Assembly (NCBI GenBank): GCA_947650365.1
Contig: CANTAL010000002.1
Coordinates: 2,239,501-2,303,500 of the forward strand
Direction of reading: 5' to 3'
Length of the DNA: 64,000 bases
Origin: Chamaelirium japonicum
Lineage: Eukaryota; Streptophyta; Magnoliopsida; Liliales; Melanthiaceae
The notes beneath the pieces were generated by a model. The model worked only from the letters and a program-made list of their open reading frames with translations. It had not been told where the DNA came from and made no database searches. The position numbers and the translations under genes were made by a program. Shown piece by piece: positions 773 through 62,648 of the stretch (the stretch's first letter is position 1; every line of letters begins with the position of its first letter).

Positions 773-813
773 TTAGAATCGATTGTGCGAATGAATTAGA
801 ATGGATCTGGATC
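773..813 (-). repeat. Short reverse block leading into module B
   Basis: About two reverse units, including the linked variant GATTGTGCGAATG, between a CCTACGAATG switch and the module B core at 803-821. Confidence 0.85.
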
Positions 814-821
814 GTGTATCC
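803..821 (-). repeat. Junction module B, inverted orientation (copy 1)
   Basis: Core GGATCTGGATCGTGTATCC is the reverse complement of the copy at 3655. The left flank (GATCCTACG, then GATTGTGCG) and right flank (a CGTACGACCC unit) are the reverse complement of the flanks there. Reverse units lie to the left and forward units to the right. Confidence 0.9.
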
Positions 822-1442
822 ATTTTAATTCATTCGTACGACCCATTCTAATTCATTCGTACGATCCATTCTAATTGATTCGCACAATCGATTCTAATTC
901 ATTCGTACGATCCATTCTATCTCATTCGTACAATCCATTCTATTTCATTCGTACGATCCATTCTAATTCATTCGTACGATCCATTCTAATTCATTCGCAC
1001 GATCCATTCTAATTCATTCGTACGATCCATTCGCACGACCAATTCTATTTCATTTGTACGATCCATTCTAATTCATTCGCACGATCCATTATAGTTCATT
1101 CATACGATCCATTCTAATTCATTCCTACGATCTATATTCTAATTCATTCGCACGATCCATTCTATCTCATTCGTACAATCCATTCTAATTTATTCGTACG
1201 ATCCATTCTAATTCATTCATACGATCCATTCTAATTCATTCGTACGATCCATTCTAATTCATTCGCACGATCCATTCTAATTCATTCGTACGATCCATTC
1301 TAATTCATTCATACGATCCATTCTAATTCATTCGTACGATCCATTCTAATTCATGGGCACAATCTATTCTAATTCATTCGCACAATCTATTCTAATTCAT
1401 TCGTACGATCCATTCTAATTCATTCGTACGATCCATTCTAAT
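814..1442 (+). repeat. Forward block
   Basis: Starts with the CGTACGACCC unit that accompanies module B. It includes a repeat of the TCTATCTCATTCGTACAATCC variant (about 917 and 1165) and a 25-bp CTATATTCTA unit near 1132. It ends at CCATTCTAATTAGAATGG, a fold-back at the TCTAATTAGA palindrome. Confidence 0.9.
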
Positions 1443-1800
1443 TAGAATGGATACATTCGTACGATCGAATTAGAATGGATCGTACGAATGAATTAGAATG
1501 GATCGTGCGAATGAATTAGAATGGATCGTACGAATGAAATAGAATGGATTCGTACGAATGAATTAGAATGGATCGTACAAAGGAATTAGAATGGATCGTA
1601 CGAATGAATTAGAATGGATCGTACGAATGAATTAGAATGGATTGAATTAGAATGAATCGTACGAATGAATTAGAATGAATCATACCGTACGAATGAATTA
1701 GAATGGATCATACAAATGAAATAGAATGGATCGTATGAATGAATTAGAATGGATCGTGCGAATGAATTAGAATAGATCGTACGAATGAATTAGAATGGAT
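1443..1800 (-). repeat. Reverse block
   Basis: Contains the marker ATACCGTACG near 1683, which recurs at about 4314, 7323, 11116, 11297 and 48,103 and, inverted, near 11,731, 23,117, 38,234 and 41,971. It ends in module A (inverted) at 1797. Confidence 0.9.
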
Positions 1801-1905
1801 TCGCACGAATGTATCCATTCTAATTCATTCGTACGATCCATTCTAATTCATTCGCACGATCCATTCCAATTCATTCGCACGAATGTATCCATTCTAATTC
1901 ATTCG
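1801..1905 (+). repeat. Short forward block
   Basis: Four to five units, two of them 28-bp long units. It ends with GTTTGAGTGAATGCGAATGG, a switch word that recurs in either orientation about 19 times in the window. Confidence 0.88.
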
Positions 1906-3667
1906 TTTGAGTGAATGCGAATGGATCGTGCGAATGAATTAGAATGGAATGAATTAGAATGGATTGAATTAGAATGGATCGTACAAATAAATTAGAATGG
2001 ATCATATGAATGAATTAGAATGGATCGTACGAATGAGTAAGAATGGATCATGCGAATGAATTAGAATGGATTGTACGAATGAATTAGAATGGATCGTACG
2101 AAGGAATTAGAATGGATCGTACGAATAAATTAGAATGGATCGTGCGAATAAATTAGAATGGATCGTATGAATGAATTAGAATGGATCGTGCGAATGAATT
2201 AGAATATGGATCGTACGAAGGAATTAGAATGAATCGTACGAATAAATTAGAATGGATCGTGCGAATGAATTAGAATGGATCGTACGAATGAAATAGAATG
2301 GATTCGCATGAATGGATCGTATAAATGAATTAGAATGGATCGTTTGAGTGAATGCGAATGGATCGTGCGAATGAATTAGAATGGAATGAATTAGAATGGA
2401 TTGAATTAGAATGAATCGTACGAATGAATTAGAATGGATCGTACAAATGAATTAGATGGATCGTACGAATGAATTAGAATAGATTGTGCGAATGAATTAG
2501 AATGGATCGTATGAATGAATTAGAATGGATCGTACGAATGAATTAGAATGGATCGTATGAATGAATTAGAATGGATCGTACGAATGAATTAGAATGGATC
2601 GTACGAATGAATTAGAAAGGATAGATTCGTACAAATGAATTAGAATGGATCGTACGAATGAATTAGAGTGGATACGTTCGTGCAAAAGAATTAGAATGGA
2701 TTGTATGAATGAATTAGAATGGATCATACGAATGAATTAGAATGGATCGTATGAATGAAATAGAATGGATTAGAATGAATTAGAATGGATCGTATGAATG
2801 AATTAGAATAGATCATACGAATGAAATAGAATGGATTCGCACGAATGTATCCATTCTAATTCAATGGATCGTGCGAATGAATTAGAATGGATCGTACGAA
2901 TGAATTAGAATGGCTCGTACGAAGGAAATAGAATGGATCGTACGAATGAATTAGAATGGATCGTACTAATGAATTAGAATAGATTGTGCGAATGAATTAG
3001 AATGGATCGTACGAATGAATTAGAATGGATCGTACGAATGAATTAGAATGAATTAGAATGGATCGTACGAATGAATTAGAATGGATCGTACGAATGAAAT
3101 AGAATGGATCGTATAAATGAATTAGAATGGATCGTGCGAATGAATTAGAATGGTTCGTACGAATGAAATAGAATGGATTCGCACGAATGTATCCATTCTA
3201 ATTCAATGGATCGTGCGAATGAATTAGAATGGATCGTACGAATGAATTTGAATGGATCGTACGAAGGAATTAGAATGGATCGTACGAATGAATTAGAATG
3301 GATCGTACGAATGAATTAGCATGGATCGTACGAAGGAATTAGAATGGATCGTACGAATGAATTAGAGTTGATACATTCGTGTGAATGAATTAAAATGGAT
3401 AATACGAATGAATTAGAATGGATTGTATGAATGAATTAGAATGGATCGTGCGAATGAATTAGAGTTGATACATTCGTGTGAATGAATTAAAATGGATAAT
3501 ACGAATGAATTAGAATGGATTGTATGCATGAATTAGAATGGATCGTACGAATGAAATAGAATGGATCGTACGAATGTATTGGAATGGATCGTACGAATGA
3601 ATTAGAATGGATCGTGCGAATGAATTAGAATGGGTCGTACGAATGAATTAGAATGGATACACGATCC
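1906..3667 (-). repeat. Reverse block with two forward islands
   Basis: Mostly reverse units. Forward islands of about 30 bp at roughly 2833-2864 and 3175-3207 begin with inverted module A and return through CTAATTCAATGGATCGTGCG. A segment with GAGTTGATACATTCGTGTG and AAAATGGATAATACG occurs twice within 120 bp (about 3364 and 3472), a local duplication of about 108 bp. GAATATGGATCG (25-bp unit) is near 2202. Confidence 0.9.
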
Positions 3668-3673
3668 AGATCC
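3655..3673 (+). repeat. Junction module B (copy 2)
   Basis: Core GGATACACGATCCAGATCC. The left flank carries a GGGTCGTACG unit. The right flank carries GCACAATCTATT, then CGTAGGATCC. Confidence 0.92.
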
Positions 3674-3868
3674 ATTCTAATTCATTCGCACAATCTATTC
3701 TAATTCATTCGTAGGATCCATTCTAATTCATTACTACAATCCATTCTAATTCATTCGCACGATCCATTCTAATTCATTCGTACGATCCATTCTAATTCAT
3801 TCGCACGATCCATTCTAATTCATTCATACGATCCATTCTAATTCATTCGCACGAATGTATCCATTCTA
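3668..3868 (+). repeat. Forward block after module B
   Basis: About nine units beginning with GCACAATCTATT and CGTAGGATCC, then ATTACTACAATCC. A similar order follows the module B copy at 57,935 (ATTACTACGATCC). It ends at a 28-bp unit joined to AAATGAATTAG. Confidence 0.88.
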
Positions 3869-4922
3869 AATGAATTAGAATGGATCGTACGAATAAGTAA
3901 GAATGGATCGTGCGAATGAATTAGAATAGATCATATGAATGAATTAGAATGGATCGTATGAATGAATTAGAATGGATCGTGTGAATAAATTAGAATGGAT
4001 CGTATCAATGAATTAGAATCGATCGTACGAATGAATTAGAATGGATCATGCGAATGAATTAGAATGGATTGTGCGAATGAATTAGAATGGATCATACGAA
4101 TGAATTAGGATGGATTCATTCGTGCGAATGAATTAGAATGGATCGTACGAATGAGTAAGAATGGATCGTACGAATGAATTAGAATGGATTGAATTAGAAT
4201 GAATCGTACGAATGAATTAGAATGGATCGTACGAATGACTTAGAATGGATCGTACGAATGAATTAGAATGGATTGAATTAGAATGAATCGTACGAATGAA
4301 TTAGAATGAATCATACCGTACGAATGAATTAGAATGGATCATACGAAGGAATTAGAATGGATCGTGCGAATAAATTAGAATGGATCGTATGAATGAATTA
4401 GAATAGATCGTACGAATGAATTAGAATGGATCGTACGAATGAATTAGAATGGATACATTCGTGCGAATGAATTAGAATGGATCGTATGAATGAATTAGAT
4501 TGGATTGTATGCATGAATTAGAATGGATCGTGCGAATGAATTAGAATGGATCGTACGAATGAATTAGAATGGATCGAAAGAATGAATTAGAATGGATACA
4601 TTCGTGCAAAAGAATTAGAATGGATTGTATGAATGAATTAGAATGGATCGTGCGAATGAATTAGAATGGATCGTACGAATGAATTAGAATGGATACATTC
4701 GTGCGAATGAATTAGAATGGATCGTATGAATGAATTAGATTGGACCGTATGCATGAATTAGAATGGATCGTGCGAATGAATTAGATTGGATCGTACGAAT
4801 GAATTAGAATGGATTGAACGAATATATTAGAATGGATCGTACGAATGAGTAAGAATGGATCGTACGAATGAATTAGAATGGATCGTACGAATGAATTAGA
4901 ATGGATCATACGAATGAATTCG
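3869..4922 (-). repeat. Reverse block
   Basis: Contains GGATTGAATTAGAATGAATCG (15-bp unit) at about 4190 and 4270 and ATACCGTACG near 4314. A segment including GGATACATTCGTGCGAATG and a GTATGCATGAATTAG unit is present twice (about 4450-4540 and 4690-4780), a local duplication of about 240 bp. It ends at GAATGAATTCGAATGTATCC (4914-4933). Confidence 0.9.
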
Positions 4923-5180
4923 AATGTATCCATTCTAATTCATTCATACGATCCATTCTATCTCATTCGTATAATCCATTCTAATTCATTCGTACGATCC
5001 ATTCTAATTCATTCGCACGATCCATTCTATCTCATTTGTACAATCCATTCTAATTCAATCCATTCTAATTCATTCGTACGATCCATTCTAATTCATTCGT
5101 ACGATCCATTCTAATTAATTCGTACGATTCATTCTAATTCCTTCGTACGATCCATATTCTAATTCATTCGCACGATCCAT
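4878..5180 (+). repeat. Inverted duplication, arm 1
   Basis: Runs across the reverse-to-forward switch at GAATTCGAATGTATCC and matches the reverse complement of roughly 18,600-18,904, unit for unit and variant for variant. The arms are about 13.7 kb apart. Part of the order is also present, direct and without the switch, near 16,440-16,620. Confidence 0.85.
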
Positions 5181-6108
5181 TCTAATTCATTCATACGATC
5201 CATTCTAATTTATTCGCACGATCCATTCCAATTCATTCGTACGATCCATTCTAATTCCTTCGTACGATCCATTCTAATTCATTCGTACGATCCAATCTAA
5301 TTCATTCGTATGATCCATTCTAATTCATTTGTACGATCCATTCTAATTCACTCGCACGATCCATTGAATTAGAATGGATACATTCGTGCGAATCCATTCT
5401 ATTTCATTCGTACGATCCATTCTAATTCATTTGCACGATCCATTCTAATTCATTCATACGATCCATTCTATTTCATTCGTACGATCCATTCTAATTCATT
5501 CGTACGATCCATTCTAATTCATTCTAATTCATTCGTACGATCCATTCTAATTCATTCATACGATCCATTCTAATTCATTCGCACAATCTATTCTAATTCA
5601 TTAGTACGATCAATTCTAATTCATTCGTACGATCCATTCTAATTCATTCGTACGATCCATTCTAATTCATTCGTACGATCCATTCTAATTCATTCGCACG
5701 ATCCATTCTAATTCATTCATACGATCCATTCTAATTCCTTCGTACGATCCATTCTAATTCAATCGTACGATCCATTCTAATTCATTCGCACGATCCATTC
5801 TAATTCATTCATACGATCCATTCTAATTCATTCGTACGAATGTATCAACTCTAATTCATTCGTACGATCGATTCTAATTCATTCGCACGATCCATTCTAA
5901 TTCATTCGTACAATCCATTCTAATTCCTTTGTACGATCTATTTTAATTCATTCATACGATCCATTCTAATTCATTCGTACGATCCATTCTAATTCCTTCG
6001 TACGATCCATTCTAATTTATTCGTACGATCCATTTTTACTCATTCGTACGATCCATTCTAATTCATTCATACAGTCTATTCTAATTCTTTTGCACGAATG
6101 TATCCATT
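4923..6108 (+). repeat. Forward block
   Basis: Its left part (to about 5180) matches the reverse complement of about 18,600-18,860, including variants GTATAATCC, TCTATCTCATTTGTACAATCC, CTAATTCAATCC and CCATATTCTA. A reverse island with module A lies at 5364-5394. It ends near 6108 in a 28-bp unit joined to TAGAATGAATTAG. Confidence 0.9.
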
Positions 6109-7597
6109 AGAATGAATTAGAATGGATCGTACGAATGAATTAGAATGGATCGTGCGAATGATTTAGAATGGATCATATGAATCAATTAGAATGGATCGTA
6201 TGAATGAATTAGAATGGATCGTGCGAATAAATTAGAATGGATCGTATGAATTAATTAGAATAGATTGTGCGAATGAATTAGAATGGATCATACGAATGAA
6301 ATAGAATGGATCGTGCGAATGAATTAGAATTGATCGTACGAATGTATTAGAATGGATCGTATGCATGAATTAGAATGGATCGTGCGAATAAATTAGAATG
6401 GATCGTACGAATGAATTAGAATGGATCGTATGAATGAATTAGAATGGATCGTGCGAATGAATTAGAATGGATCGTACGAATGAATTAGAATGGATCGTAC
6501 GAATGAAATAGAATGGATCGTACGAATGCATTAGAATGGATCGTACTAATGAATGAGAATAGATTGTGCGAATGAATTAGAATGGATCGTACGAATGAAT
6601 TAGAATGGATCGTACGAATGAATTAGATTGGATCGTATTAATGAATTAGAATGGAACGTACGAATGAATTAGAAAGGATCATACGAAGGAATTAGAATGG
6701 ATCGTACGAATAAATTAGAATAGATCGTACGAATGAATTAGAATGGATCATATGAATGAATTAGAATGGATCGTATGAATGAATTAGAATGGATCGTACG
6801 AATGAATTAGAATGGATCGTACGAATGAATTAGAATAGATTGTGCGAATAAATTAGAATGGATCGTGCAAATGAATTAGAATGGATCGTACGAATGAATT
6901 AGAATGGATCATGCTAATGAATGAATTAGAATGGATCGTGCGAATGAATTAGAATGGATTGTACGAATGAGTAAGAATGGATCGTGCGAATGAATTAGAA
7001 TGGATCGTACGAATGAAATAGAATGGATTGTACGAATGAGATAGAATGGATCGTACGAATGAATTAGAATGGATACATTCATGCGAATGAATTAGAATGG
7101 ATCATACGAATGAATTAGAATGGATTCATTCGTGCGAATGAATTAGAATGGATCGTACGAATGAGTAAGAATTGACCGTACGAATGAATTAGAATGGATT
7201 GAATTAGAATGAATCGTACGAATGAATTAGAATGGATCGTACGAATGAATTAGAATGGATCGTACGAATAAATTAGAATGGATTGAATTAGAATGAATCG
7301 TTCGAATGAATTAGAATGAATCATACCGTACGAATGAATTATAATGGATCATACGAAGGAATTAGAATGGATCGTATGAATGAATTAGAATGGATCGTAC
7401 GAATGAATTAGAAAGGATCGTACGAAGGAATTAGAATGGATAGTATGAATGAATTAGAATGGATACCTTCGTGCAAATGAATTAGAATGGATCGTACGAA
7501 TGAGTAAGAATGGCTCGTACGAATGAAATAGAATGGATCGTATGAATGAATTAGAATGGATCGTATGAATGAATTAGAATGGATACATTCGTGCGAA
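6109..7597 (-). repeat. Reverse block
   Basis: Its 6,790-7,375 part is directly duplicated at 10,583-11,168. Markers are CATGCTAATGAATGAATTAG (6910) and ATACCGTACG followed by ATTATAATGG (7323). The end at 7581-7600 is a module A copy. Confidence 0.9.
6790..7375 (-). repeat. Direct duplication, 3,793-bp spacing, copy 1
   Basis: CATGCTAATG lies at 6910 here and at 10,703 in copy 2. TCATACCGTACG lies at 7321 here and at 11,114 there. Both spacings are exactly 3,793 bp, so no unit was gained or lost between the markers. Confidence 0.85.
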
Positions 7598-8674
7598 TCC
7601 ATTCTATTTCATTCGTACGATCCATTCTAATTCATTCGCACGATCCATTCTAATTCATTCATACGATCCATTCTAATTCCTTCGTACGATCCATTCTAAT
7701 TCATTCGTACGTTCCAATCTAATTCTTTCATACGATCCATTCTAATTCATTCGTACGATCCATTCTAATTCATTCGTACGATCCATTCTAATTCGTGCGA
7801 ATGTATCCATTCTAATTCATTCGTACGATCCATTATAATTCATTCGTACGAAAGTATCCATTCTAATTCATTTGTACGAATGTATCCACTCTAATTCATT
7901 CGTACGATCCATTCTAATTCATTAGCACGATCCATTCTAATTCATTCGTACGATCCATTCTAATTCATTTATACGATCCAATCTAATTCATTCGCACGAT
8001 CCATTCGCATTCACTCAAACGATCCATTCTAATTCATTCATATGATCCATTATAATTCATTCGCACGATCCATTCTAATTTATTTGCACGATCCATTCTA
8101 ATTCATTCATACGATCCATTCTATTTCATTCGTACGATCCATTCTAATTCATTTGTACGATCCATTCTAATTCATTCGTACGATCCATTCTAATTCATTC
8201 GCACAATCTATTCTAATTCATTCGTACGATCCATTCTAATTCATTCGCACGATCCATTCTAATTCATTCATACGATCCATTCTATTTCATTCGTACGATC
8301 CATTCTTACTCATTCGTACGATCCATTCTAATTCATTTGCACGAAGGTATCCATTCTAATTCATTCGTACTATCCAATCTTATTCATTTGTACGATCCAT
8401 TCTAATCCATTCGTATCCATTCTAATTCATTCGTACGATCCATTCTAATTCATTCGCACGATTCATTCTAATTCAATCCATTCTAATTCATTCGTACGAT
8501 CCATTCTTACTCATTCGTACGATCCATTCTAATTCATTCGCACAATCCATTCTAATTCAATCCATTCTAATTCATTCGTACGATCCATTCTTACTCATTC
8601 GTACGATCCATTCTAATTCATTCACACAATCCATTTTAATTCATTTGCACGAAGGTATCCATTCTAATTCATTC
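7598..8674 (+). repeat. Forward block
   Basis: Its segment 7,794-8,050 (GTGCGAATGTATCC, ATTTGTACGAATGTATCCAC, ATTAGCACG, TTATACGATCCAATC, then CATTCGCATTCACTCAAACG) is a higher-order segment found again near 22,017, 40,145 and 43,880 and, shortened, near 51,533. The 15-bp unit TCTAATTCAATCC recurs at about 8470 and 8550, followed each time by TTCTTACTCATT. Confidence 0.9.
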
Positions 8675-9051
8675 GTGTGAATGAATTAGAATGGATCGTG
8701 CGAATGAATTTGAATGGATCGTGCGAATGAATTAGAATGGATCGTACGAATGAAATAGAATGGATTGTACGAATGAGATAGAATGGATCGTACGAATGAA
8801 TTAGAATCGATTGTGCGAATGAATTAGAATGGATCGTACGAAGGAATTAGAATGGATCGTACGAATGAATTAGAATGGATCGTACGAAGGAATTAGAATG
8901 GATCGTACGAATGAATAATAATGGATCGTATGAATGAATTAGATTGGATCGTATTAATGAATTAGAATGGATCATACGAATGAATTAGAATAGATCGTAC
9001 GAATGAATTAGAATGGATACGAATGGATCGTACGAATGAGTAAAAATGGAT
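8675..9051 (-). repeat. Reverse block
   Basis: Joined to the previous block at ATTCGTGTGAATGAATTAG. Contains a TTAGATTGGATCGTATTAATG pair of variants (about 8940) shared with 9626 and 9866. It ends at AAAAATGGATCTATTCTAATTC. Confidence 0.88.
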
Positions 9052-9602
9052 CTATTCTAATTCATTCATACGATCCATTCTAATTCATTCGTACGATCCA
9101 TTCTAATTCATTCGCACGCTATTCTAATTCATTCGTAGGATCCATTCTAATTCATTCGTACGATCCAATCTAATTCATAAGTACGATCCATTCTAAATCA
9201 TTCGCACGATCCATTCTAACTCATTCATACGAATCCATTCTATTTCATTCGTACGATCTATTCTATTTCATTCGTACAATCTATTCTAATTCATTCATAC
9301 GATCCATTCTTATTCATTCGTACGATCCATTCTAATTCATTCGCACGCTATTCTAATTTATTCGTAGGATCCATTCTAATTCATTACTACGATCCATTCT
9401 AATTCATTCATACGATCCATTCTAATTCATTCCTACGATCCATTCTAATTCATTCGTACGATCCATGCTAATTCATTCGTACGATCCATTCTAATTCATG
9501 CGCACAATCTATTCTAATTAATTCGCACAATCTTTTCTAATTCATTCGTACGATCCATTCTAAATCATTCGTACGATCCATTCTAATTAATTCGCACGCT
9601 AT
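9052..9602 (+). repeat. Forward block
   Basis: A truncated unit GCACGCTATTCTAATTC occurs twice (about 9113 and 9346), each followed by CGTAGGATCC: an internal duplication of about 230 bp. The same truncated word forms the exit switch at 9594-9606. Confidence 0.88.
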
Positions 9603-10083
9603 TAGAATGAATTAGAATGGATCGTATGAATGAATTAGATTGGATCGTATTAATAAATTAGAATGGATCGTACGAATGAATTAGAATAGATCATACGAAT
9701 GAATTAGAATAGATTGTGCGAATGAATTAGAATGGATCGTGATAATGAATTAGAATGGATTGTATGAATGAATTAGAATGGATCGTGCGAATGAATTAGA
9801 ATGGATCGTACGAATGAATTAGAATGGATCATGCGAATGAATTAGAATAGATCGTATGAATGAATTAGATTGGATCGTATTAATGAATTGGAATGGATCG
9901 TACGAATGAATTAGAATAGATCGTACGAATGAATTAGAATGGATCGTACGAATGAATTAGAATGGATTGTACGAATGAATTAGAATAGATCGTATGAATG
10001 AATTAGAATGGATCGTATGAATGAATTAGAATGGATCGTGCGAATGAATTAGAATGGATCATACGAATAAAATAGAATGGATT
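9603..10083 (-). repeat. Reverse block
   Basis: The TTAGATTGGATCGTATTAAT variant pair occurs at about 9626 and 9866, with similar units between, suggesting a duplication of about 240 bp. It exits through inverted module A at 10,079 (with GAATGCATCC). Confidence 0.88.
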
Positions 10084-10518
10084 CGCACGAATGCATCCAT
10101 TCTAATTCATTCGTACGATCCATTCTAATTCATTCGTACAATCCATTCTAATTCATTCGCACGATCCATTTTTACTCATTCGTACGATCCATTCTAATTC
10201 ATTCGTACGATCCATTCTAATTCATTAATACGATCCAATCTAATTCATTCATATGATCTATTCTAATTCATTCGCACGATCCATTCTAATTCATTCGTAC
10301 GATCCATTCTAATTCATTCGCACGATCCATTCTAATTCATTTATACAATCCATTCTAATTCATTCGCACGATCCATTCTAATTCATTCACACAATCTATT
10401 CTTATTTATTCGTACGATCTATTCTAATTCATTCGTACGATCCATTCTAATTCATTAATACGATCCAATCTAATTCATTCATACGATCCATTCTAATTCA
10501 TTCTAATTCATTCGCACG
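10084..10518 (+). repeat. Forward block
   Basis: About 19 units. ATTAATACGATCCAATC appears at about 10,224 and 10,455. It ends at TTCGCACGAATTAGAATGG, a switch at a shared CGAATTAG/CTAATTCG word. Confidence 0.88.
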
Positions 10519-11475
10519 AATTAGAATGGATTAGGATGGATCGTACGAATGAGTAAGAATGGATCGTACGAATGAAATCGAATGGATCGTATGAATGAAT
10601 TAGAATGGATCGTACGAATGAATTAGAATAGATTGTGCGAATGAATTAGAATGGATCGTGCAAATGAATTAGAATGGATCATACGAATGAATTAGAATGG
10701 ATCATGCTAATGAATGAATTAGAATGGATCGTGTGAATGAATTAGAATGGATCGTATGAATGAGTAAGAATGGATCGTGCGAATGAATTAGAATGGATCG
10801 TACGAATGAAATAGAATGGATTGTACGAATGAGATAGAATGGATCGTACGAATAAATTAGAATGGATACATTCATGCGAATGAATTAGAATGGATCATAC
10901 GAATGAATTAGAATGGATTCATTCGTGCGAATGAATTAGAATGGATCGTACGAATGAGTAAGAATGGATCGTACGAATGAATTAGAATGGATTGAATTAG
11001 AATGAATCGTACGAATGAATTAGAATGGATCGTACGAATGAATTAGAATGGATCGTACGAATGAATTAGAATGGATTGAATTAGAATGAATCGTATGAAT
11101 GAATTAGAATGAATCATACCGTACGAATGAATTATAATGGATCATACGAAGGAATTAGAATGGATCGTACGAATGAATTAGAATGGATCGTACGAATGAA
11201 TTAGAATGGATCGTACGAATGAATTAGAATGGATCATACGAATGAATTAGAATGGATTGAATTAGAATGAATCGTACGAATGAATTAGAATGAATCATAC
11301 CGTACGAATGAATTAGAATGGATCATACGAAGGAATTAGAATGGATCGTGCAAATAAATTAGAATGGATCGTATGAATGAATTAGAATTGATCGTACGAA
11401 TGAATTAGAATGGATCATACGAATGAAATAGAATGGATACATTCGTACGAATAAATTAGAATAGATTGTGCGAAT
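10519..11475 (-). repeat. Reverse block
   Basis: Holds copy 2 of the 3,793-bp-spaced duplication. The GGATTGAATTAGAATGAATCG plus ATACCGTACG segment is present twice in a row (about 11,080-11,130 and 11,250-11,305), a local duplication of about 182 bp. Confidence 0.9.
10583..11168 (-). repeat. Direct duplication, 3,793-bp spacing, copy 2
   Basis: Markers CATGCTAATG at 10,703 and TCATACCGTACG at 11,114 pair with 6,910 and 7,321. A few substitutions separate the copies, for example AATAAATTAG here against AATGAATTAG there. Confidence 0.85.
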
Positions 11476-20010: not shown

Positions 20011-20103
20011 ATTAGAATGGATCGTACGAATGAATTAGAATGGATCGTACGAATGATTAAGAATGGATCGTGCGAATGAATTAGAATGGATCATATGAAT
20101 GAA

Positions 20104-50647: not shown

Positions 50648-51094
50648 TCCATTCTATTTCATTCGTACGATCCATTCTAATTCATTCGCACGATCCATTC
50701 TAATTCATTCATACGATCCATTCTAATTCATTCGTACGATCCATTCTAATTCATTCGTACGATCCATTCTAATTCATTCATACGATCCATTCTAATTTAT
50801 TAGCACAATCTATTCTAATTCATTCGTACGATCCATTCTAATCCATTCGTACAATCCATTCTAATTCATTCGCACGATCCATTCGCATTCACTCAAACGA
50901 TCCATTCTAATTCATTCGTACGATCTATTCGAATTCATTCATACGATCCATTCTAATTCATTCATACGATCCATTCTAATTCATTCATATGATCCATTCT
51001 AATTCATTCGCACGATCCATTCTTACTCATTCGTACGATCCATTCTAATTTATTCGCACGATCCATTCTAATTCATTAATACGATCCATTCTCG
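50648..51094 (+). repeat. Forward block
   Basis: Starts like the segments after the other cassettes, but is shortened before CATTCGCATTCACTCAAACG (50,880). It ends at ATCCATTCTCGAATAGGTCG, a switch seen only once. Confidence 0.88.
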
Positions 51095-51404
51095 AATAGG
51101 TCGTGCGAATGAATTAGAATTGATCGTACGAATGAATTGGAATGGATACATTCGTGCGAATGAATTAGAATGGATCGTATGAATGAATTAGAGTGGATAC
51201 ATTCGTACAAATGAATTAGAATGGATCGTACGAATGAATTAGAATGGATACATTCGTGCGAATGAATTAGAATGGATCATATGAATGAATTAGAATGGAT
51301 CGTTTGAGTGAATGCGAATGGATCGTGCGAATGAATTAGAATGGATTGTACGAATGAATTAGAATGGATCGTACGAATGAATTAGAATGGATACATTCGT
51401 GCGA
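51095..51404 (-). repeat. Reverse block
   Basis: About 13 units: GAATTGGAATGGATACATTCG, GAGTGGATACATTCGTAC, GTTTGAGTGAATGCG (51,303), then module A at 51,389. Confidence 0.9.
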
Positions 51405-52827: not shown

Positions 52828-53046
52828 GAAATAGAATGGATTAGAATGGATCGTACTTATGAATTAGAATGGATACATTCGTATGAATGAATTAGAATGG
52901 ATCATATGAATGAATTAGAATGGATCGTGCGAATGAATTAGAATTGATCGTACGAATGAATTAGAATGGATCGTAGTAATGAATTAGAATGGATCCTACG
53001 AATGAATTAGAATAGATTGTGCGAATGAATTAGAATGGATCTAGAT
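52828..53046 (-). repeat. Reverse block
   Basis: Same opening as 45,262: GAAATAGAATGGATTAG and ACTTATGAATTAG. It is about 20 bp shorter, one reverse unit fewer. Confidence 0.9.
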
Positions 53047-53055
53047 CGTGTATCC
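53037..53055 (-). repeat. Junction module B, inverted orientation (copy 11)
   Basis: Core GGATCTAGATCGTGTATCC, one substitution. The left flank GATCCTACG is intact; the right flank reads CGTACTACCC for CGTACGACCC. Confidence 0.9.
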
Positions 53056-53639
53056 ATTCTAATTCATTCGTACTACCCATTCTAATTCATTCGCACGATC
53101 CATTCTAATTCATTCGTACGATCCATTCTAATTCCTTCGTACGATCCATTCTAATTCATGCGCACAATCTATTCTAATTCATTCGCACAATCCATTCTAA
53201 TTCATTCGCACGAAGGTATCTATTCTATTTCATTCGTACAATCCATTCTATTTCATTCGTACGATCCATTCTAATTCATTCGTATGATCCATTCTAATTC
53301 ATTCGCACAATCCATTCTAATTCCTTCGTACGATCCATTCTAATTCATTCGCATGAATGTATCCATTCTAATTCATTCGTACGATCCATTCTATCTCATT
53401 CGTACAATCCATTCTATTTCATTCGTATGATCCATTCTAATTCATTCGTATGATCCATTCTAATTCTAATTCATTTGTACGATCCATTCTAATTCATTCG
53501 TATGATCCTTTCGAATTCATTCGTACGATCCATTCTAATTCATTCACACAATCTATTCTAATTCATTAGTACGATCCATTCTAATTCATTCGTACGATCC
53601 ATTCTAATTCATTAGCACGATCCAAATTTATTTATCTGT
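53047..53639 (+). repeat. Forward block
   Basis: Contains TCTATCTCATTCGTACAATCC (53,387) as in the first kilobase, and a truncated ATTCTAATTCTAATTC unit (53,460). It ends at ATCCAAATTTATTTATCTG. Confidence 0.88.
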
Positions 53640-53916
53640 ACGAATGAATTAGAATGGATACATTCGTACGATCGAATTAGAATGGATCGTACGAATGAAA
53701 TAGAATGGATCGCGCGAATGAATTAGAATGGATCGTACGAATGAATTAGAATGGATCGTACGAATGACTTAGAATGGATTGTTCGAATGAATTAGAATAG
53801 ATTGTGCGAATGAATTAGAATGGATCGTACGAATGAATTAGAATGGATCTGGATCGTACGAATGATTCATTCTATGAATGGATCGTACGAATGAATTAGA
53901 ATGGATCTGGATCGTG
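53640..53916 (-). repeat. Reverse block
   Basis: ACATTCGTACGATCGAATTAG near 53,660 also occurs near 1453. The right end repeats the 28,784-28,860 arrangement of two CTGGATCG words around an ATTCATTCTATGAATGG fold-back. Confidence 0.88.
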
Positions 53917-53921
53917 TATCC
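53903..53921 (-). repeat. Junction module B, inverted orientation (copy 12)
   Basis: Core GGATCTGGATCGTGTATCC, followed by CCTTCGTACGATCC as at 28,842. Confidence 0.92.
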
Positions 53922-54484
53922 ATTCTAATTCCTTCGTACGATCCATTCTAATTCATTCGTACGATCCATTCTAATTCATTCGCACGATCCATTCTAATTC
54001 ATTCGCACGAATGTATGCATTCTAATTCATACGTACGATCTATTCTAATTCATTCGTACGATCAATTCTAATTCATGCGCACAATCCATTCTAATTCATT
54101 TGCACGATCCATTCTAATTCATTCATACAATCCATTCTAATTCTTTTGCACGAATGTATCCATTCTAATTCATTCGCACGAATGTATCCTTTCTAATTCA
54201 TTCGTACGATCCATTCTAATTCATTCGCACAATCTATTCTAATTCATTCGAACGATCCATTCTAAGTCATTCGTACGATCCATTATAATTCATTCGTACG
54301 ATCCATTCTAATTCATTCGCACGATCCATTCTATTTCATTCGTACGATCCATTCTAATTCATTCGCACGAATGTATCCATTCCGATTCATTCGTACGATC
54401 CATTCTAATTCATTCGCACAATCTATTCTAATTCATTCGTACGATCAATTCTAATTCATTCGCACGTATCCATTCTAATTCATA
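53917..54484 (+). repeat. Forward block
   Basis: Order CCTTCGTACG, CATACGTACGATCTATTC, GCACAATCC, TTTGCACG largely matches 28,863-29,100. It ends at ATTCATACGAATGAATTAG. Confidence 0.88.
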
Positions 54485-54767
54485 CGAATGAATTAGACTG
54501 GATCGTACGAATGAATTAGAATGGATTGAATTAGAATGGATCGTACGATAAGAATGGATTGTTCGAATAAAATAGAATAGATCGTACGGATAAATGAATT
54601 TGGATCGTACGAATGAATTAGAAAGGATACATTCGTGCAAAAGAATTAGAATGGATTGTATGAATGAATTAGAATGGATCGTGCGAATGAATTAGAATGC
54701 GAATGAATTAGAATGGATCGTACGAATGAATTAGAATGGGTCGTACGAATGAATTAGAATGGATACA
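54485..54767 (-). repeat. Reverse block
   Basis: Includes GTACGATAAGAATGG (54,543) and CGTACGGATAAATGAATTTGG (54,583). Its left part and the forward segment at 54,840-54,960 are reverse complements of each other, an inverted repeat flanking module B. Confidence 0.88.
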
Positions 54768-54779
54768 CGATCCAGATCC
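54761..54779 (+). repeat. Junction module B (copy 13)
   Basis: Core GGATACACGATCCAGATCC with GGGTCGTACG on the left. The right flank is a TCTATTTCATTCG unit instead of GCACAATCTATT. Confidence 0.9.
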
Positions 54780-55928
54780 ATTCTATTTCATTCGTACGAT
54801 CCATTCTAATTCATTCGCATGATCCATTCTAATTCATTCGTACGATCCAAATTCATTTATCCGTACGAACTATTCTATTTCATTCGTACGATCCATTCGT
54901 ATCGTACGATCCATTCTAATTCAATCCATTCTAATTCATTCGTACGATCCATTCTAATTCATTCGTACGATCCATTCTATTTCATTCGTACGATCCATTC
55001 TAATTCATTCGCATGATCCATTCTAATTCATTCATACAATCCATTCGTACGACCCATTCTAATTCATTCGTACGATCCATTCTAATTCATTCATACGATC
55101 CATTCTATTTCATTCGTACGACCCATTCTTACTCATTCGTACGATCAATTCTAATTCATTAGCATGATCCATTCTAATTCAGTCGTACGATCTATTCTAT
55201 TTTATTCGTACAATCCATTCTTACTCAATCGTACGATCCATTCTAATTCATACGATCCATTCTAATTCATTCGCACGAATGTATCCATTCCAATTCATTC
55301 GTACGATCCATTCTAATTCATTCGCACAATCTATTCTAATTCATTCGTACGATCAATTCTAATTCATTAGCATGATCCATTCTAATTCATTCGTACGATC
55401 TATTCTATTTCATTCGTACAATCCATTCTTACTCAATCGTATGATCCATTCTAATCCATTCGCACAATCTATTCTAATTCATTCATACGATCCATTCTAT
55501 TTCATTCGTACGATCCATTCTAATTCATACGATCCATTCTATTTCATTCATACGATCCATTTTACTTCATTCGCACGATCCATTCTAATTCATTCGTACT
55601 ATCCATTCTAATTCATTCATACTATCCATTCTAATTCCTTCGTACGATCCATTCTAATTCCTTCGTACGATCCATTCTAATTCATTCGCACGATCCATTC
55701 TAATTCATTCGTACGATCCATTCTAATTCATTCATACAATCCATTCTAATTCATTCATACGATCCATTCTAATTCATTCGTACGATCCATTCTAATTCAT
55801 TCGTACGATTCATACTAATTCAATCCATTCTAATTCATTCGTACGATCCATTCTTACTCATTCGTACGATCCATTCTAATTCATTCATACGATCCATTCT
55901 AATTCATTCGTACTATCCATTCTAATGT
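54768..55928 (+). repeat. Forward block
   Basis: TTAGCATGATCC plus TCTATTCTATTT plus CTTACTCAATCGTA is present twice (about 55,160-55,225 and 55,368-55,440), a local duplication of about 208 bp. GTATCGTACGATCC near 54,899 is a truncated unit. It ends at ATTCTAATGTATCGTACGAATG. Confidence 0.9.
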
Positions 55929-57130
55929 ATCGTACGAATGAATTAGAATAGATCGTATGAATGAATTAGAATAGATCATGCTAATGAATTAGAATGGATC
56001 GTACGAATGAATTAGAATGGATCGTACGAAGGAATTAGAATGGATCGTACGAATGAATTAGAATGGATCGTACGAATGAATTAGAATGGATCGTACGAAT
56101 GAATAAGAATGGATCGTACGAATGAATTAGAATGGATTGAATTAGAATGAATCGTACGAATGAATTAGAATGAACTATACCGTACGAATGAATTAGAATG
56201 GATCATACGAATGAAATAGAATGGATCGTATGAATGAATTACAATGGATCGTGCGAATGAATTAGAATGGATCGTACGAATGAATTAGAATAGATCGTAC
56301 GAATGAATTAGAATGGATCATGCTAATGAATTAGAATTGATCGTACGAATGAATTAGAATAGATTGTGCGAATGAATTAAAATGGATCGTACGAATGAAT
56401 TGGAATGGATACATTCGTGCGAATGAATTAGAATGGATCGTATGAATGAATTAGAGTGGATACATTCGTACAAATGAATTAGGATGGATCGTATGAATGA
56501 ATTAGAGTGGATACATTCATACGAATGAATTAGAATAGATTGTGCGAATGAATTAGAATGGATCGTACGAATGAATTAGAATGGATCGTACGAATGAATT
56601 AGAATGGATCGTACGAATGAATTAGAATGGATCGTGCGAATGAATTAGAATGGATCGTACGAATGAAATAGAATGGATCGTATGAATGAATTAGAATGGA
56701 TCGTGCGAATGAATTAGAATGGATCGTACGAATGAATTAGAATAGATCGTACGAATGAATTAGAATGGATCATGCTAATGAATTAGAATTGATCGTACGA
56801 ATGAATTAGAATAGATTGTGCGAATGAATTTGAATGGATCGTACGAATGAATTGGAATGGATACATTCGTGCGAATGAATTAGAATGGATCGTATGAATG
56901 AATTAGAGTGGATACATTCGTACAAATGAATTAGGATGGATCGTATGAATGAATTAGAGTGGATACATTTGTACGAATGAATTAGAATAGATTGTGCGAA
57001 TGAATTAGAATGGATCGTACGAATGAATTAGAATGGATCGTACGAATAAATTAAAATGGATCGTATGAATGAATTAGAATGGATCGTGCGAATGAATTAG
57101 AATGGATCGTACGAATGAAATAGAATGGAT
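55929..57130 (-). repeat. Reverse block
   Basis: Contains ATACCGTACG (56,168) and a tandem pair of about 452-bp segments. It exits through inverted module A at 57,127. Confidence 0.92.
56291..56990 (-). repeat. Local tandem duplication, 452-bp spacing
   Basis: TAGATCGTAC followed by CATGCTAATG at 56,291 recurs at 56,743. GAGTGGATACATTCATACG (56,505) recurs as GAGTGGATACATTTGTACG (56,957). The second copy is the one carried into the 4,264-bp duplication (61,007). Confidence 0.9.
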
Positions 57131-57690
57131 TCGCACGAATGTATCCATTCTAATTCATTCGTACGATCCATTCTAATTCATTCGCACGATCCATTCTAAT
57201 TCATTCGCACGAATGTATCCATTCTAATTCATTCGTATGATCCATTCTAATTCATTCATACGATCCATTATAATTCATTCGCACGATCCATTCTAATTCA
57301 TTCATACGATCCATTCTAATTCATTCGTATGATCCATTCTAATTAATTCGCACAATCTATTCTAATTCATTCATACGATCCATTCTAATTCATTCGTACG
57401 ATCCATTCTAATTCATTCGTACGATCCATTCTAATTCATTCGCACAATCTATTCTAATTCATTCATACGATCCATTCTGATTCATTCTAATTCAATCCAT
57501 TCTAATTCATTCGTACGATCCATTCTAATTCATTCGTACGATCCATTCTAATTCTACGATCCATTCTTACTCATTCGTATTATCCATTTTAATTCATTCA
57601 CACGAATGTATCAACTCTAATTCATTCGTACGATTCATTCTAATTCAATCCATTCTAATTCATTCGTACGATCCATTCTAACTCATTCGT
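57131..57690 (+). repeat. Forward block
   Basis: About 24 units. Relative to 61,395-61,955 it has three extra units near 57,350 and lacks three units near 57,675. It ends in a fold-back with one mismatch (CTAACTCATTCGTACGAATG). Confidence 0.92.
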
Positions 57691-57940
57691 ACGAATGAAT
57701 TAGAATAGTACGAATGAATTAGAATGGATTAGAATGAATTAGAATGGATCGTATGAATGAATTAGAATGGATCGAACGAATGAATTAGAATGGATACATT
57801 CGGGCAAAAGAATTAGAATGGATTGTATGAATGAATTAGAATGGATCGTATGAATGAATTAGAATGGATCGTGCGAATGAATTAGAATGGATCGTACAAA
57901 TGAATTAGAATGGGTCGTACGAATGAATTAGAATAGATAC
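57691..57940 (-). repeat. Reverse block
   Basis: Starts AGAATAGTACGAATG and GGATTAGAATGAATTAG, then GGATACATTCGGGCAAAAG (57,783), a variant shared only with 62,047. It ends in module B. Confidence 0.92.
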
Positions 57941-57953
57941 ACGATTCAGATCC
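57935..57953 (+). repeat. Junction module B (copy 14)
   Basis: Diverged core AGATACACGATTCAGATCC (two changes), with GGGTCGTACG on the left and GCACAATCTATT then CGTAGGATCC on the right. Confidence 0.92.
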
Positions 57954-58384
57954 ATTCTAATTCATTCGCACAATCTATTCTAATTCATTCGTAGGATCCA
58001 TTCTAATTCATTACTACGATCCATTCTAATTCATTCATACGATCCATTCTAATTCATTCGTACGATCCATTCTAATTCATTCGTACAATCCATTCTAATT
58101 CATTCATACGATCCATTCTAATTCATTCATACGATCCATTCTAATTTATTCGTACGATCCATTCTAATTCATTCGCACGATCTATTCTAATTCATTCGCA
58201 CGATCCATTCTAATTCATTCATACGATCCATTCTAATTCATTCATACAATCCATTCTAATTCTTTTGCACGAATGTATCCATTCTAATTCATTCGTTCGA
58301 TCCATTCTAATTCATTCATACGATCCATTCTAATTCATTCTACTCCATTCTAATTCATTCGTACTATTCTAATTCATTCGTACG
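57941..58384 (+). repeat. Forward block
   Basis: Carries the module B right flank, then TTACTACGATCC. A truncated unit TTCTACTCCATTC and TTCGTACTATTC precede the 32-bp palindrome. Confidence 0.92.
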
Positions 58385-58397
58385 AATGAATTAGAAT
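58366..58397. repeat. 32-bp perfect palindrome at a forward-to-reverse switch
   Basis: ATTCTAATTCATTCGT followed by its own reverse complement. The axis is the centre of the monomer core CGTACG. Copies occur at 60,476-60,507, 61,939-61,970 and 62,630-62,661. Confidence 0.95.
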
Positions 58398-58643
58398 GTA
58401 TCCTTAGAATGGATACATTCATGCGAATGAATTAGAATGGATCGTATGAATGAATTAGAATGGATCGTACGAAGGAATTAGAATGGATAGTACGAATGAA
58501 TTAGAATGGATACCTTCGTGCAAATGAATTAGAATGAATCGTACGAATGAGTAAGAATGGATCGTACGAATGAAATAGAATGGATCGTATGAATGAATTA
58601 GAATGGATCGTATGAATGAATTAGAATGGATACATTCGTGCGA
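58385..58643 (-). repeat. Reverse block
   Basis: Reads as the inverse of the forward block at 59,547-59,736: GGATACCTTCGTGCAAATG against CATTTGCACGAAGGTATCC, GAGTAAG against CTTACTC, in matching order. The two blocks form an inverted repeat of about 190 bp with a loop of about 0.9 kb. Confidence 0.9.
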
Positions 58644-58973
58644 CATTCTATTTCATTCGTATGATCCATTCTTACTCATTCGTACGATCCATTCTAATTC
58701 ATTCGCACGATCCATTCTAATTCATTCGCACGATCCATTGAATTAGAATGGATACATTCGTGCGAATCCATTCTATTTCATTCATACGATCCATTCTAAT
58801 TCATTCGCACGATCCATTCTAATTCATTCATACGATCCATTCTTTTTCATTCGTACGATCCATTCTAATTCATTCGTCTGATCCATTCTAATTCATTCGC
58901 ACGATCCATTCTAATTCATTCATACGATCCATTCTAATTCATTCGTACGATCCATTCTATTTCATTCGTACGA
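58644..58973 (+). repeat. Forward block with a reverse island
   Basis: Entered through a shortened module A (GTGCGACATTCTATTTC). The reverse island with full module A is at 58,738-58,769. Confidence 0.92.
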
Positions 58974-58986
58974 TCGTACGAATGAA
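58961..58986. repeat. 26-bp perfect palindrome at a forward-to-reverse switch
   Basis: TTCATTCGTACGA followed by its reverse complement, with the axis in CGATCG. Duplicated at 63,225-63,250. Confidence 0.95.
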
Positions 58987-59546
58987 TTAGAATGGATTGA
59001 ATTAGAATGAATCGTACGAATGAATTAGAATGAATCATACCATACGAATGAATTAGAATTGATCATACGAATGAAATAGAATGGATCGTACGAATGAAAT
59101 AGAATGGATCATATGAATGAATTAGAATGGATTGAATTAGAATGAATCGTACGAATGAATTAGAGTTGATACATTCGTGTGAATGTATTAAAATGGATAA
59201 TACGAATGAGTAAGAATGGATCGTAGAATTAGAATGGATCGTACGAATGAATTAGAATGGATCGTACGAATGAATTAGAATGGATCGTGCGAATGAATTA
59301 GATTGGATCGTACGAATGAATTAGAATGGATCGTACGAATGAAATAGAATGGATCGTATGAATGAATTAGAATGGATCGTGCGAATGAATTAGAATGGAT
59401 CGTACGAATGAAATAGAATGGATTCGCACGAATGTATCCATTCTAATTCAATGGATCGTGCGAATGAATTAGAATGGATCGTGCGAATGAATTAGAATGG
59501 ATCGTACGAATGAGTAAGAATGGATCGTACGAATGAAATAGAATGT
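58974..59546 (-). repeat. Reverse block with a forward island
   Basis: Contains GAATCATACCATACG (59,034), a CpG-decayed ATACCGTACG, and GATCGTAGAATTAG (59,219), shared with 32,207, 34,850, 60,687 and 63,483. The forward island is at 59,420-59,450. It exits at GAATGTCGCACGAATG, the inverse of the shortened module A. Confidence 0.92.
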
Positions 59547-59806
59547 CGCACGAATGTATCCATTCTAATTCATTCATACGATCCATTCTAATTCATTCAT
59601 ACGATCCATTCTATTTCATTCGTACGATCCATTCTTACTCATTCGTACGATCCATTCTAATTCATTTGCACGAAGGTATCCATTCTAATTCATTCGTACT
59701 ATCCATTCTAATTCCTTCGTATGATCCATTCTAATTCATTCATACGATCCATTCTAATTTATTCGCACGAATGTATCCATTCTAAGGATACATTCTAATT
59801 CATTTG
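59547..59806 (+). repeat. Forward block
   Basis: About 11 units with a GAAGGTATCC long unit. After 59,736 it leaves the part visible in copy 2. It ends with CTAAGGATACATTCTAATTC and CATTTGTACGAATGAATTAG. Confidence 0.9.
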
Positions 59807-60236
59807 TACGAATGAATTAGAATGGATTAGAATGATACGAATGAATTAGAATGGATCGTATGAATGAATTAGAATGGATCGAACAAATGAATTAGAATGG
59901 ATACATTCGTGCAAAAGAATTAGAATGGATTGTAAGAATGAATTAGAATGGATCGTATGAATGAATTAGAATGGATCGTGCGAATGAATTAGAATGGATC
60001 GTGCGAATGAATTAGAATGGATCGTATGAATGAATTAGAATGGATCGTATGAATGAATTAGAATGGATCGTATGAATGAATTAGAATGGATTGTGCGAAT
60101 GAATTAGAATGGATCGTACGAATGAATTAGAATGGATCGTATGAATGAATTAGAATGGATCGTAGTAATGAATTACAATGGATCCTACGAATGAATTAGA
60201 ATAAATTGTGCGAATGAATTAGCATGGATTTGGATC
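59807..60236 (-). repeat. Reverse block
   Basis: Begins GGATTAGAATGATACGAATG. The GTGCAAAAG unit is at 59,909. It ends with GTAGTAATG, CCTACGAATG and module B. Confidence 0.9.
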
Positions 60237-60244
60237 GTGTATCC
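60226..60244 (-). repeat. Junction module B, inverted orientation (copy 15)
   Basis: Core GGATTTGGATCGTGTATCC, one change. The left flank GATCCTACG ... ATTGTGCG and the right flank CGTACGACCC are intact. Confidence 0.9.
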
Positions 60245-60491
60245 ATTCTAATTCATTCGTACGACCCATTCTAATTCATTCGTACGATCCATTCTAATTC
60301 TTTCGCACGATCCATTCTAATTTATTCATACGGTCCATTCTAATTAATTCATACAATCCATTCTAATTCTTTTGCACGAATGTATCCATTCTAATTCATT
60401 CGTTCGATCCATTCTAATTCATTCATACGATCCATTCGAATTCATTCGTTCGATCCATTCTAATTCATTCGTACTATTCTAATTCATTCGT
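60237..60491 (+). repeat. Forward block
   Basis: About 11 units. TTTTGCACGAATGTATCC, TTCGTTCGATCC and TTCGTACTATTC resemble the order at 58,262-58,370. It ends in a 32-bp palindrome. Confidence 0.92.
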
Positions 60492-60507
60492 ACGAATGAA
60501 TTAGAAT
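60476..60507. repeat. 32-bp perfect palindrome at a forward-to-reverse switch
   Basis: Same sequence as 58,366-58,397, though outside the part shared at 4,264-bp spacing. Confidence 0.95.
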
Positions 60508-61394
60508 GGATCGTACGAATGAATTAGAATGGATCGTATGAATGAATTAGAATGGATCGTACGAATGAATTAGAATGGATCGTACGAATGAATTAGAATG
60601 GATTGAATTAGAATGAATCGTACGAATGAATTAGAGTTGATACATTCGTGTGAATGAATTAAAATGGATAATACGAATGAGTAAGAATGGATCGTAGAAT
60701 TAGAATGGATCGTACGAATGAATTAGAATGGATCGTACGAATGAATTATAATGGATTTAATTAGAATGAATCAGAATGGATCGTATGAATGAATTAGAAT
60801 AGATTGTGCGAATGAATTAGAATGGATCATACGAATGAATTAGAATGGATCGTACGAATGAATTAGAATGGATCGTATGAATGAATTAGAATGGATCGTG
60901 CGAATGAATTAGAATGGATCGTACGAATGAAATAGAATGGATCGTATGAATGAATTAGAATGGATCGTGCGAATGAATTAGAATGGATCGTACGAATGAA
61001 TTAGAATAGATCGTACGAATGAATTAGAATGGATCATGCTAATGAATTAGAATTGATCGTACGAATGAATTAGAATAGATTGTGCGAATGAATTAGAATG
61101 GATCGTACAAATGAATTGGAATGGATACATTCGTGCGAATGAATTAGAATGGATCGTATGAATGAATTAGAGTGGATACATTCACACAAATGAATTAGGA
61201 TGGATCGTATGAATGAATTAGAGTGGATACATTCGTATGAATGAATTAGAATAGATTGTACGAATGAATTAGAATGGATCGTACGAATGAATTAGAATGG
61301 ATCGTACGAATGAATTAGAATGGATCGTATGAATGAATTAGAATGGATCGTGCGAATGAATTAGAATGGATCGTACGAATGAAATAGAATGGAT
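60492..61394 (-). repeat. Reverse block
   Basis: Left 290 bp resemble 59,100-59,290 (GAGTTGATACATTCGTGTG, GATCGTAGAATTAG). From about 60,789 it matches 56,525 onward. Confidence 0.92.
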
Positions 61395-61955
61395 TCGCAC
61401 GAATGTATCCATTCTAATTCATTCGTACGATCCATTCTAATTCATTCGCACGATCCATTCTAATTCATTCGCACGAATGTATCCATTCTAATTCATTCGT
61501 ATGATCCATTCTAATTCATTCATACGATCCATTCTAATTCATTCACACGATCCATTCTAATTCATTCATACGATCCATTCTAATTCATTCGTACGATCCA
61601 TTCTAATTCATTCGTACGATCCATTCTAATTCATTCGCACAATCTATTCTAATTCATTCATACGATCCATTCTGATTCATTCTAATTCAATCCATTCTAA
61701 TTCATTCGTACGATCCATTCTAATTCATTCGTACGATCCATTCTAATTCTACGATCCATTCTTACTCATTCGTATTATCCATTTTAATTCATTCACACGA
61801 ATGTATCAACTCTAATTCATTCGTACGATTCATTCTAATTCAATCCATTCTAATTCATTCGTACGATCCATTTTAATTCATTCGTATGATCCATTCTAAT
61901 TCATTCATACGATCCATTCTAATTCATTCGTACGATCCATTCTAATTCATTCGTA
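61395..61955 (+). repeat. Forward block
   Basis: Counterpart of 57,131-57,690. It has three extra units before the palindrome (CGTATGATCC, CATACGATCC, CGTACGATCC at about 61,880-61,940). Confidence 0.92.
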
Positions 61956-61970
61956 CGAATGAATTAGAAT
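61939..61970. repeat. 32-bp perfect palindrome at a forward-to-reverse switch
   Basis: Perfect here. The corresponding position in copy 1 (about 57,675-57,706) has one mismatch (CTAACTC). Confidence 0.95.
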
Positions 61971-62648
61971 AGTACGAATGAATTAGAATGGATTAGAATG
62001 AATTAGAATGGATCGTATGAATGAATTAGAATGGATCGAACGAATGAATTAGAATGGATACATTCGGGCAAAAGAATTAGAATGGATTGTATGAATGAAT
62101 TAGAATGGATCGTATGAATGAATTAGAATGGATCGTGCGAATGAATTAGAATGGATCGTACAAATGAATTAGAATGGGTCGTACGAATGAATTAGAATAG
62201 ATACACGATTCAGATCCATTCTAATTCATTCGCACAATCTATTCTAATTCATTCGTAGGATCCATTCTAATTCATTACTACGATCCATTCTAATTCATTC
62301 ATACGATCCATTCTAATTCATTCGTACGATCCATTCTAATTCATTCGTACAATCCATTCTAATTCATTCATACGATCCATTCTAATTCATTCATACGATC
62401 CATTCTAATTTATTCGTACGATCCATTCTAATTCATTCGCACGATCTATTCTAATTCATTCGCACGATCCATTCTAATTCATTCATACGATCCATTCTAA
62501 TTCATTCATACAATCCATTCTAATTCTTTTGCACGAATGTATCCATTCTAATTCATTCGTTCGATCCATTCTAATTCATTCATACGATCCATTCTAATTC
62601 ATTCTACTCCATTCTAATTCATTCGTACTATTCTAATTCATTCGTACG
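61956..62648. repeat. Reverse block 61,956-62,204 and forward block 62,205-62,648
   Basis: Counterparts of 57,691-57,940 and 57,941-58,384 with almost no differences. Module B (AGATACACGATTCAGATCC) sits at the junction. Confidence 0.92.
62199..62217 (+). repeat. Junction module B (copy 16)
   Basis: The same two-change core as copy 14, exactly 4,264 bp away. Confidence 0.92.

Follow-up and report, generated by a model that had tools for sequence, protein, structure and literature searches.

The stretch of DNA analysed here (the window: 64,000 nucleotides, positions 1–64000 corresponding to positions 2239501–2303500 of contig CANTAL010000002.1, labelled C14, in the Chamaelirium japonicum assembly GCA_947650365.1) is filled from end to end by a 23-/28-bp satellite whose decomposition into units reveals alternating direction, and one of its direction changes, module B, recurs there in 16 copies. 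Module B is most probably an inversion breakpoint that arose once in the Chio satellite of the holocentromere and was then multiplied as a passenger by largely strand-blind copying of array segments. The case for a single origin rests on two observations, namely that rare variants are linked to the core of the joint and that long segments are shared between its copies. Local copying is regarded as largely strand-blind because the orientation of B is random on trees of its copies and because inverted and direct copies occur in similar numbers.

Identity of the satellite

The basic unit of the satellite is ATCCATTCTAATTCATTCGTACG (23 bp), and a 28-bp form consists of the same unit plus 5 bp, with CGTGCG replacing CGTACG; 28-bp-like units number 510 of 5,385. 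Chio1 (23 bp) and Chio2 (28 bp) are the CENH3-bound satellite monomers of Chionographis japonica (2n = 24; 1,090.73 Mb in 12 scaffolds), described in the accessible text of Kuo et al. (2023, PMC10264360) as forming 100 megabase-scale units of mixed direction. The present satellite agrees with that description in the lengths of its monomers, in the 5-bp difference accompanied by one substitution, in its mixture of forward and reverse arrays and in its megabase units. The 9-mer TTCGTACGA, which is given as common to Chio and the Chama satellite of Chamaelirium luteum, from the sister genus, in the available part of the report on Chama (PMC12722358), spans the unit border in the window; Chama itself is reported there to have 60-bp monomers in consistently oriented arrays, unlike the alternating direction of Chio. 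Judged by monomers and genome statistics, by the printed description and by the shared 9-mer rather than by alignment of consensus sequences, the satellite of the window appears to match Chio1/Chio2 of C. japonica.

A total of 138 strand switches were called in the 64 kb when short islands are counted, some of these switches bounding islands of 13–15 bp, and the single-direction blocks have a median length of ~0.4 kb (runs <100 bp left out). The assembly comprises 1.519 Gb in 3,253 contigs, of which twelve are of chromosome size (C1–C12), while C14 is unplaced. Eight other unplaced contigs sampled at one place each (C13, C15, C16, C17, C20, C30, C60 and C100) all proved to be satellite.

Copies of module B share rare variants and long segments

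All 16 core positions given in the preliminary description are correct: at up to 3 mismatches the window contains 16 matches to the core (10 exact, 4 with one mismatch and 2 with two; Table 1), where shuffled sequence gives a mean of 0.01. Exact cores number 4,516 in the whole assembly, 2,299 in one orientation and 2,217 in the other. A wider set, gathered via the core itself with up to 3 mismatches allowed, contains 79 B copies on C2 and C14 (39 plus, 40 minus) that represent 76 different haplotypes. The mean core difference among these 79 copies is 0.029, as befits a recurrent, high-copy direction-change sequence of the same kind as the inversion sites of Tribolium considered below.

Alignment of the 16 copies shows a single joint with flanks common to most of them. 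The unit GGGTCGTACG lies at offset -23 in 11 of the 16 cores and at 9 further places in the window, and CGTAGGAT accompanies 10 cores at +55 and occurs 3 more times elsewhere; GCACAATCTATT, found at +33 in 11 of 16, is weakly diagnostic, with 94 further places in the window, and the longer GTAGGATCC goes with 6 of 16. Binomial probabilities of these associations, calculated against ~2,751 units, are 2e-24 for GGGTCGTACG, 3e-13 for GCACAATCTATT and 2e-26 for CGTAGGAT, and among the 79 copies the three are present in 47, 46 and 48, respectively. The earlier claim that diagnostic flanking units travel with the core in most copies thus holds for GGGTCGTACG, GCACAATCTATT and the initial CGTAGGAT portion of the third unit, but not for the longer GTAGGATCC.

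The longest core-spanning match of each copy to another B copy ranges from 356 bp (the copy at 54761) to 4,856 bp (57935, 60226 and 62199), with identities of 94.1–99.6%; in this comparison of 78 cores the partner was required to bear B, and for the copy at 45494 the longest unrestricted match is to a partner without B. One origin followed by spread, as first proposed, is strongly supported by the rare linked variants that accompany the core and by these core-spanning segments common to B copies, and the comparison indicates that B is one joint identical by descent, flanks included. The accompanying idea of a fixed spreading segment of 100–130 bp has to be abandoned, as the shared pieces measure 356–4,856 bp and have varied ends; the shorter figure approximates the overlap common to most copies because many copy events had different ends. 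A transposable or site-specific inversion element would show fixed ends, whereas those of the shared segments vary.

Among self-matches of 500 bp or more in 74 kb, the direct repeat with a period of 4,264 bp (Table 1) alone reaches 99% identity. Another direct repeat in the window, 37963–40546 and 41700–44283, has an offset of 3,737 bp and an identity of 98.8%.

Orientation and strand of copying

The presence of B in both orientations had been read as a sign of inversion. By itself it is no evidence, since a reverse-to-forward joint remains a reverse-to-forward joint when reverse-complemented, so that equal orientation needs no special event; what does speak for frequent flipping is the random orientation on trees, together with the inverted duplicates that bear cores. 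Changes of orientation on the trees number 17 for C14 (15.8 when shuffled) and 11 for C2 (10.9 when shuffled), showing that orientation has no link to ancestry. Self-matches of at least 500 bp were taken within 74 contiguous kb, and since one repeat can yield several pairs the counts are interdependent. At 90–95% identity there are 71 direct and 65 inverted matches, at 95–99% 26 direct and 42 inverted, and at ≥99% 1 direct and 0 inverted; over the range 93–99%, inverted duplicates equal or outnumber direct ones. The similar numbers of inverted and direct copies at 90–99% argue for largely strand-blind exchange, beyond simple unequal crossing-over. Local copying therefore heeds strand little, or inversion follows quickly; the youngest repeat has the appearance of a product of ordinary unequal crossing-over.

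Anatomy of the joint and proposed mechanism

Module B reads ...GAATGGATACA CGATCCA GATCCATTC..., the left part being a reverse Chio2 unit (GGATACA) and the right part a forward unit with a tandem GATCCA; on this parse, which is read from the sequence, the join would share about 2 bp (CA). In the founding event a reverse 28-bp Chio2 unit (...GAATGGATACA) would have been joined over those ~2 bp (CA) to a forward 23-bp unit, the forward partner carrying a 6-bp tandem duplication (CACGATCCA / GATCC). Array segments of a few hundred bp to ~5 kb that contain the joint would then have been copied elsewhere in one orientation or the other. Ectopic homologous exchange between arrays holding both strands, through gene conversion or break-induced copying, is the most likely route, and ordinary unequal crossing-over would add the youngest direct repeats.

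A candidate precursor is a form of the duplication with no switch, in which GATCCAGATCC follows ATTCGTAC or ATTCATAC (4 of 75 contexts). The two arms of B differ by 11.9 edits in 58 bp, compared with 12.2 for permuted and 11.2 for random units; arms as unlike as random units imply that B is not a recent fold-back. A fresh fold-back palindrome was also rejected for junctions in general, as near-identical arms (≤3 edits in 92 bp) were found in 0 of 283.

Other joints and the distribution of B

Joints were classified in a sample unselected for the core (the window with loci L015–L021 and L031, 144 kb; loci at or near known cores, L001–L008 and L025–L030, were left out) by single linkage at 2 edits, so that large classes may merge unlike joints. 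The 165 reverse-to-forward joints form 12 classes; module A, the commonest (106), and B (47) together account for 153 of the joints. The 164 forward-to-reverse joints form 22 classes, the top three having 62, 47 and 28 members. Joints of the latter kind at a CGTACG palindrome are common. The suggestion that forward-to-reverse joints are far more diverse was discarded, as 60 versus 30 phase types shrank to effective numbers of 3.9 versus 2.0 classes by sequence.

In 25 kb of C1, C3, C5, C6 and C7, module A makes up 10 of 15 reverse-to-forward joints and B makes up 0 of 15. If the share of B were 47/165 everywhere, its absence would have P ~0.007 (a value that ignores clustering), so that B seems either younger than A or less widespread. 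The first 100 exact cores among the matches listed are all on C2, which would leave C1 without an exact copy, provided that the matches follow contig order. C14 shares segments of 98.0–98.4% identity with C2, and a 2.3-kb segment (98.1%) is common to C14 (L015) and C3 (L067); such sharing would fit exchange between units of different chromosomes.

Points against a single origin with passive copying

Several observations weigh against this interpretation of B. The switch-less duplication may be derived rather than ancestral, because no GATCCAGATCC in the window is more than 80 bp away from a B core. The preliminary description had proposed comparing the flanks with random units, and the outcome agrees in direction, identity anchored on the core extending for a median of 104 bp to the left and 44 bp to the right, where phase-matched random anchors give 33 bp on each side; however, 18% of random pairs reach the B median on the left and 38% on the right, and with such overlap the test says little by itself. 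The lineages 28842/53903 and 32072/33889 are without the diagnostic left flank and need later recombination near the core. Copies from C2 and C14 interleave on the tree (21 changes versus 25 shuffled), but are mildly separated, 31 of 500 shuffles being as low, and the trees are built on ~188 columns with many weak forks. As C14 is unplaced, some of the likeness between C2 and C14 could be allelic, or the contig could be a mosaic. Matches between loci are less even in strand and do not show equality at every depth, the numbers on the same and opposite strands (from pairs that are not independent) being 32/20 at 97–99%, 35/36 at 95–97%, 36/14 at 93–95% and 144/154 at 90–93% identity. Finally, the dominance of the largest classes is somewhat above that of a neutral urn (P 0.027 and 0.018, in a test that assumes independence, which clustered sampling violates), and passive copying itself gives no account of this excess.

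Alternative explanations

That excess is part of what would be expected if B were a selected inversion site, its joint and long hairpin being kept for the holocentromere, as has been suggested for the Tribolium sites. A 139-nt DNA strand centred on B is predicted to form a hairpin of 60 pairs with a loop of 11 nt (-52 kcal/mol), compared with -11 kcal/mol for one stretch of one-direction satellite; in addition, two classes supply 153 of the 165 reverse-to-forward joints, and Chio is reported to be CENH3-bound in the text available (PMC10264360). However, module A and a forward-to-reverse joint are also predicted to fold (-55.7 and -38.9 kcal/mol), the diversity of the core is not significantly below that of the flank (non-CpG diversity 0.019 in the core and 0.042 in the near flanks, 62 copies, P 0.11), and B, present in 0 of 15 joints on five other chromosomes, seems not to be needed everywhere. 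Selection for the site is therefore an unlikely explanation.

The composition of the common joints suggests a further, similarly improbable account, in which A and B would be favoured seeds and not passengers, Chio2-derived joints with an asymmetric loop driving the copying of arrays in either direction. Chio2-derived bases are present in 117 of 141 joints of A and 73 of 79 of B, against a background of 296 of 2,727 positions. Counted by class, both common classes have them and 0 of 12 rare classes do, a post hoc contrast of small numbers in which 2 of 14 reverse-to-forward classes is close to the background of about 11%. If this account were true, the direction-change site itself would drive the spread of centromere units along chromosomes.

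The same bases bear on the notion that B arose many times by separate breaks at a favoured word or hairpin, taken up after a somewhat better-placed candidate, a mobile or circular vehicle (extrachromosomal circular DNA, eccDNA, or a fold-back element) that re-inserts short B-centred cassettes. Short forward islands would suit such a vehicle, 25 of the 36 members of the forward-to-reverse class F>R2 lying 26–80 bp away from B (all loci, including those picked through B), and eccDNA is among the routes proposed for the spread of Chio in the accessible text of Kuo et al. (2023, PMC10264360), together with interlocus conversion and inversion. F>R2 sits at the word GTAGGATC in the right flank of B, and this position suggests an origin within a B copy, followed by spread together with B. 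In the comparisons of segments and arms, to which the test was confined, the shared segments vary in both ends and lengths and the arms are not near-identical, and a vehicle is unlikely.

Independent breaks would explain why both large reverse-to-forward classes include Chio2 bases, joints at CGTACG are common and could recur, and the anchored flank test overlaps its null. Yet the rare flank variants and long co-linear segments common to B copies, the requirement for both a 6-bp duplication and an exact join, and the background-like frequency of Chio2 bases when counted by class refute this as the main cause for B and leave it very improbable. An artefact of assembly or of chimeric inverted reads is hardly credible: long satellite arrays are hard to assemble and the joints are known here from the assembly, but artefacts would fall randomly, whereas the same joint recurs on two contigs with diverged, genealogically structured flanks, and the authors of the C. 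japonica HiFi assembly themselves reported that direction alternates in it.

Features of the window and of the assembly

Scans of the window for Rfam families and for tRNA genes gave no matches. Elsewhere, near position 6678 of locus L024 (C2:1646679), the array starts abruptly beside non-satellite DNA that resembles, by appearance only, the start of a retrotransposon reading frame. Full-length COX1 is present on at least 59 small contigs, and many organelle-derived contigs remain in the assembly. It is readable throughout in the standard code (532 aa), which is the code used in plant mitochondria.

Table 1. Coordinates of module B cores, duplications and other features in the window
Feature	Position	Strand	Basis
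Chio1/Chio2-like 23/28-bp satellite	1..64000	no strand	decomposition and published Chio description
B core, exact	803..821	-	core match
Module A example, commoner reverse-to-forward joint, GGATTCGCACGAATGTATCC	1797..1816	+	joint classification
B core, exact	3655..3673	+	core match
B core, 1 mismatch, both flanks divergent	28842..28860	-	core match and alignment
B core, exact	30658..30676	+	core match
Inverted duplication arm 1 (1,454 bp, 97.7%, two B cores)	31250..32703	+	self-match
B core, exact, within 1.45-kb inverted duplicate	32072..32090	+	core match and self-match
B core, exact, within 1.45-kb inverted duplicate	32269..32287	-	core match and self-match
Inverted duplication arm 2	33276..34729	-	self-match
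B core, exact, inverted-duplicate partner of 32269	33692..33710	+	core match and self-match
B core, 1 mismatch, inverted-duplicate partner of 32072	33889..33907	-	core match and self-match
B core, exact	34935..34953	-	core match
B core, exact	45494..45512	-	core match
B core, 1 mismatch	53037..53055	-	core match
B core, exact, divergent flank lineage shared with 28842	53903..53921	-	core match and alignment
B core, exact, typical left flank, different right flank	54761..54779	+	core match and alignment
Direct segmental repeat (4,264-bp period, 99.57%), extending past the window into L019	57648..64000	+	self-match
B core, 2 mismatches, within 4,264-bp direct repeat	57935..57953	+	core match and self-match
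B core, 1 mismatch, within 4,264-bp direct repeat	60226..60244	-	core match and self-match
B core, 2 mismatches, direct duplicate of 57935	62199..62217	+	core match and self-match

Relation to known systems and significance

The alternating direction of Chio is already published, and the accessible text of PMC10264360 describes it together with hairpins between monomers, rather than junction sequences that recur and their genealogy. The listings and paper sections searched contained no account of recurrent joints in Chio, and none of four 14-letter satellite words turned up in the literature searched. The closest parallel is provided by the conserved inversion sites INV_1a, INV_1b and INV_2 in centromere-associated satellites of Tribolium madens. 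According to the part of PMC13081366 available, a small set of very similar sites at which direction changes is present there in thousands of copies, with long hairpins predicted at these sites. Arrays of this macro-dyad type are documented only in Tribolium, according to the same text, and consist mostly of two inverted subarrays with sites 98–99% alike, whereas the plant window, with 138 switches in 64 kb, has shorter blocks and varied flanks and does not have the two-subarray form.

Each asymmetric joint records a founding event of its own, so that these joints are better markers of lineage than the 23-bp monomers. The joints are traceable between units and between chromosomes and can serve as family markers for the spread of centromere DNA, which bears on the question of how centromere satellites came to occupy ~100 sites along holocentric chromosomes.

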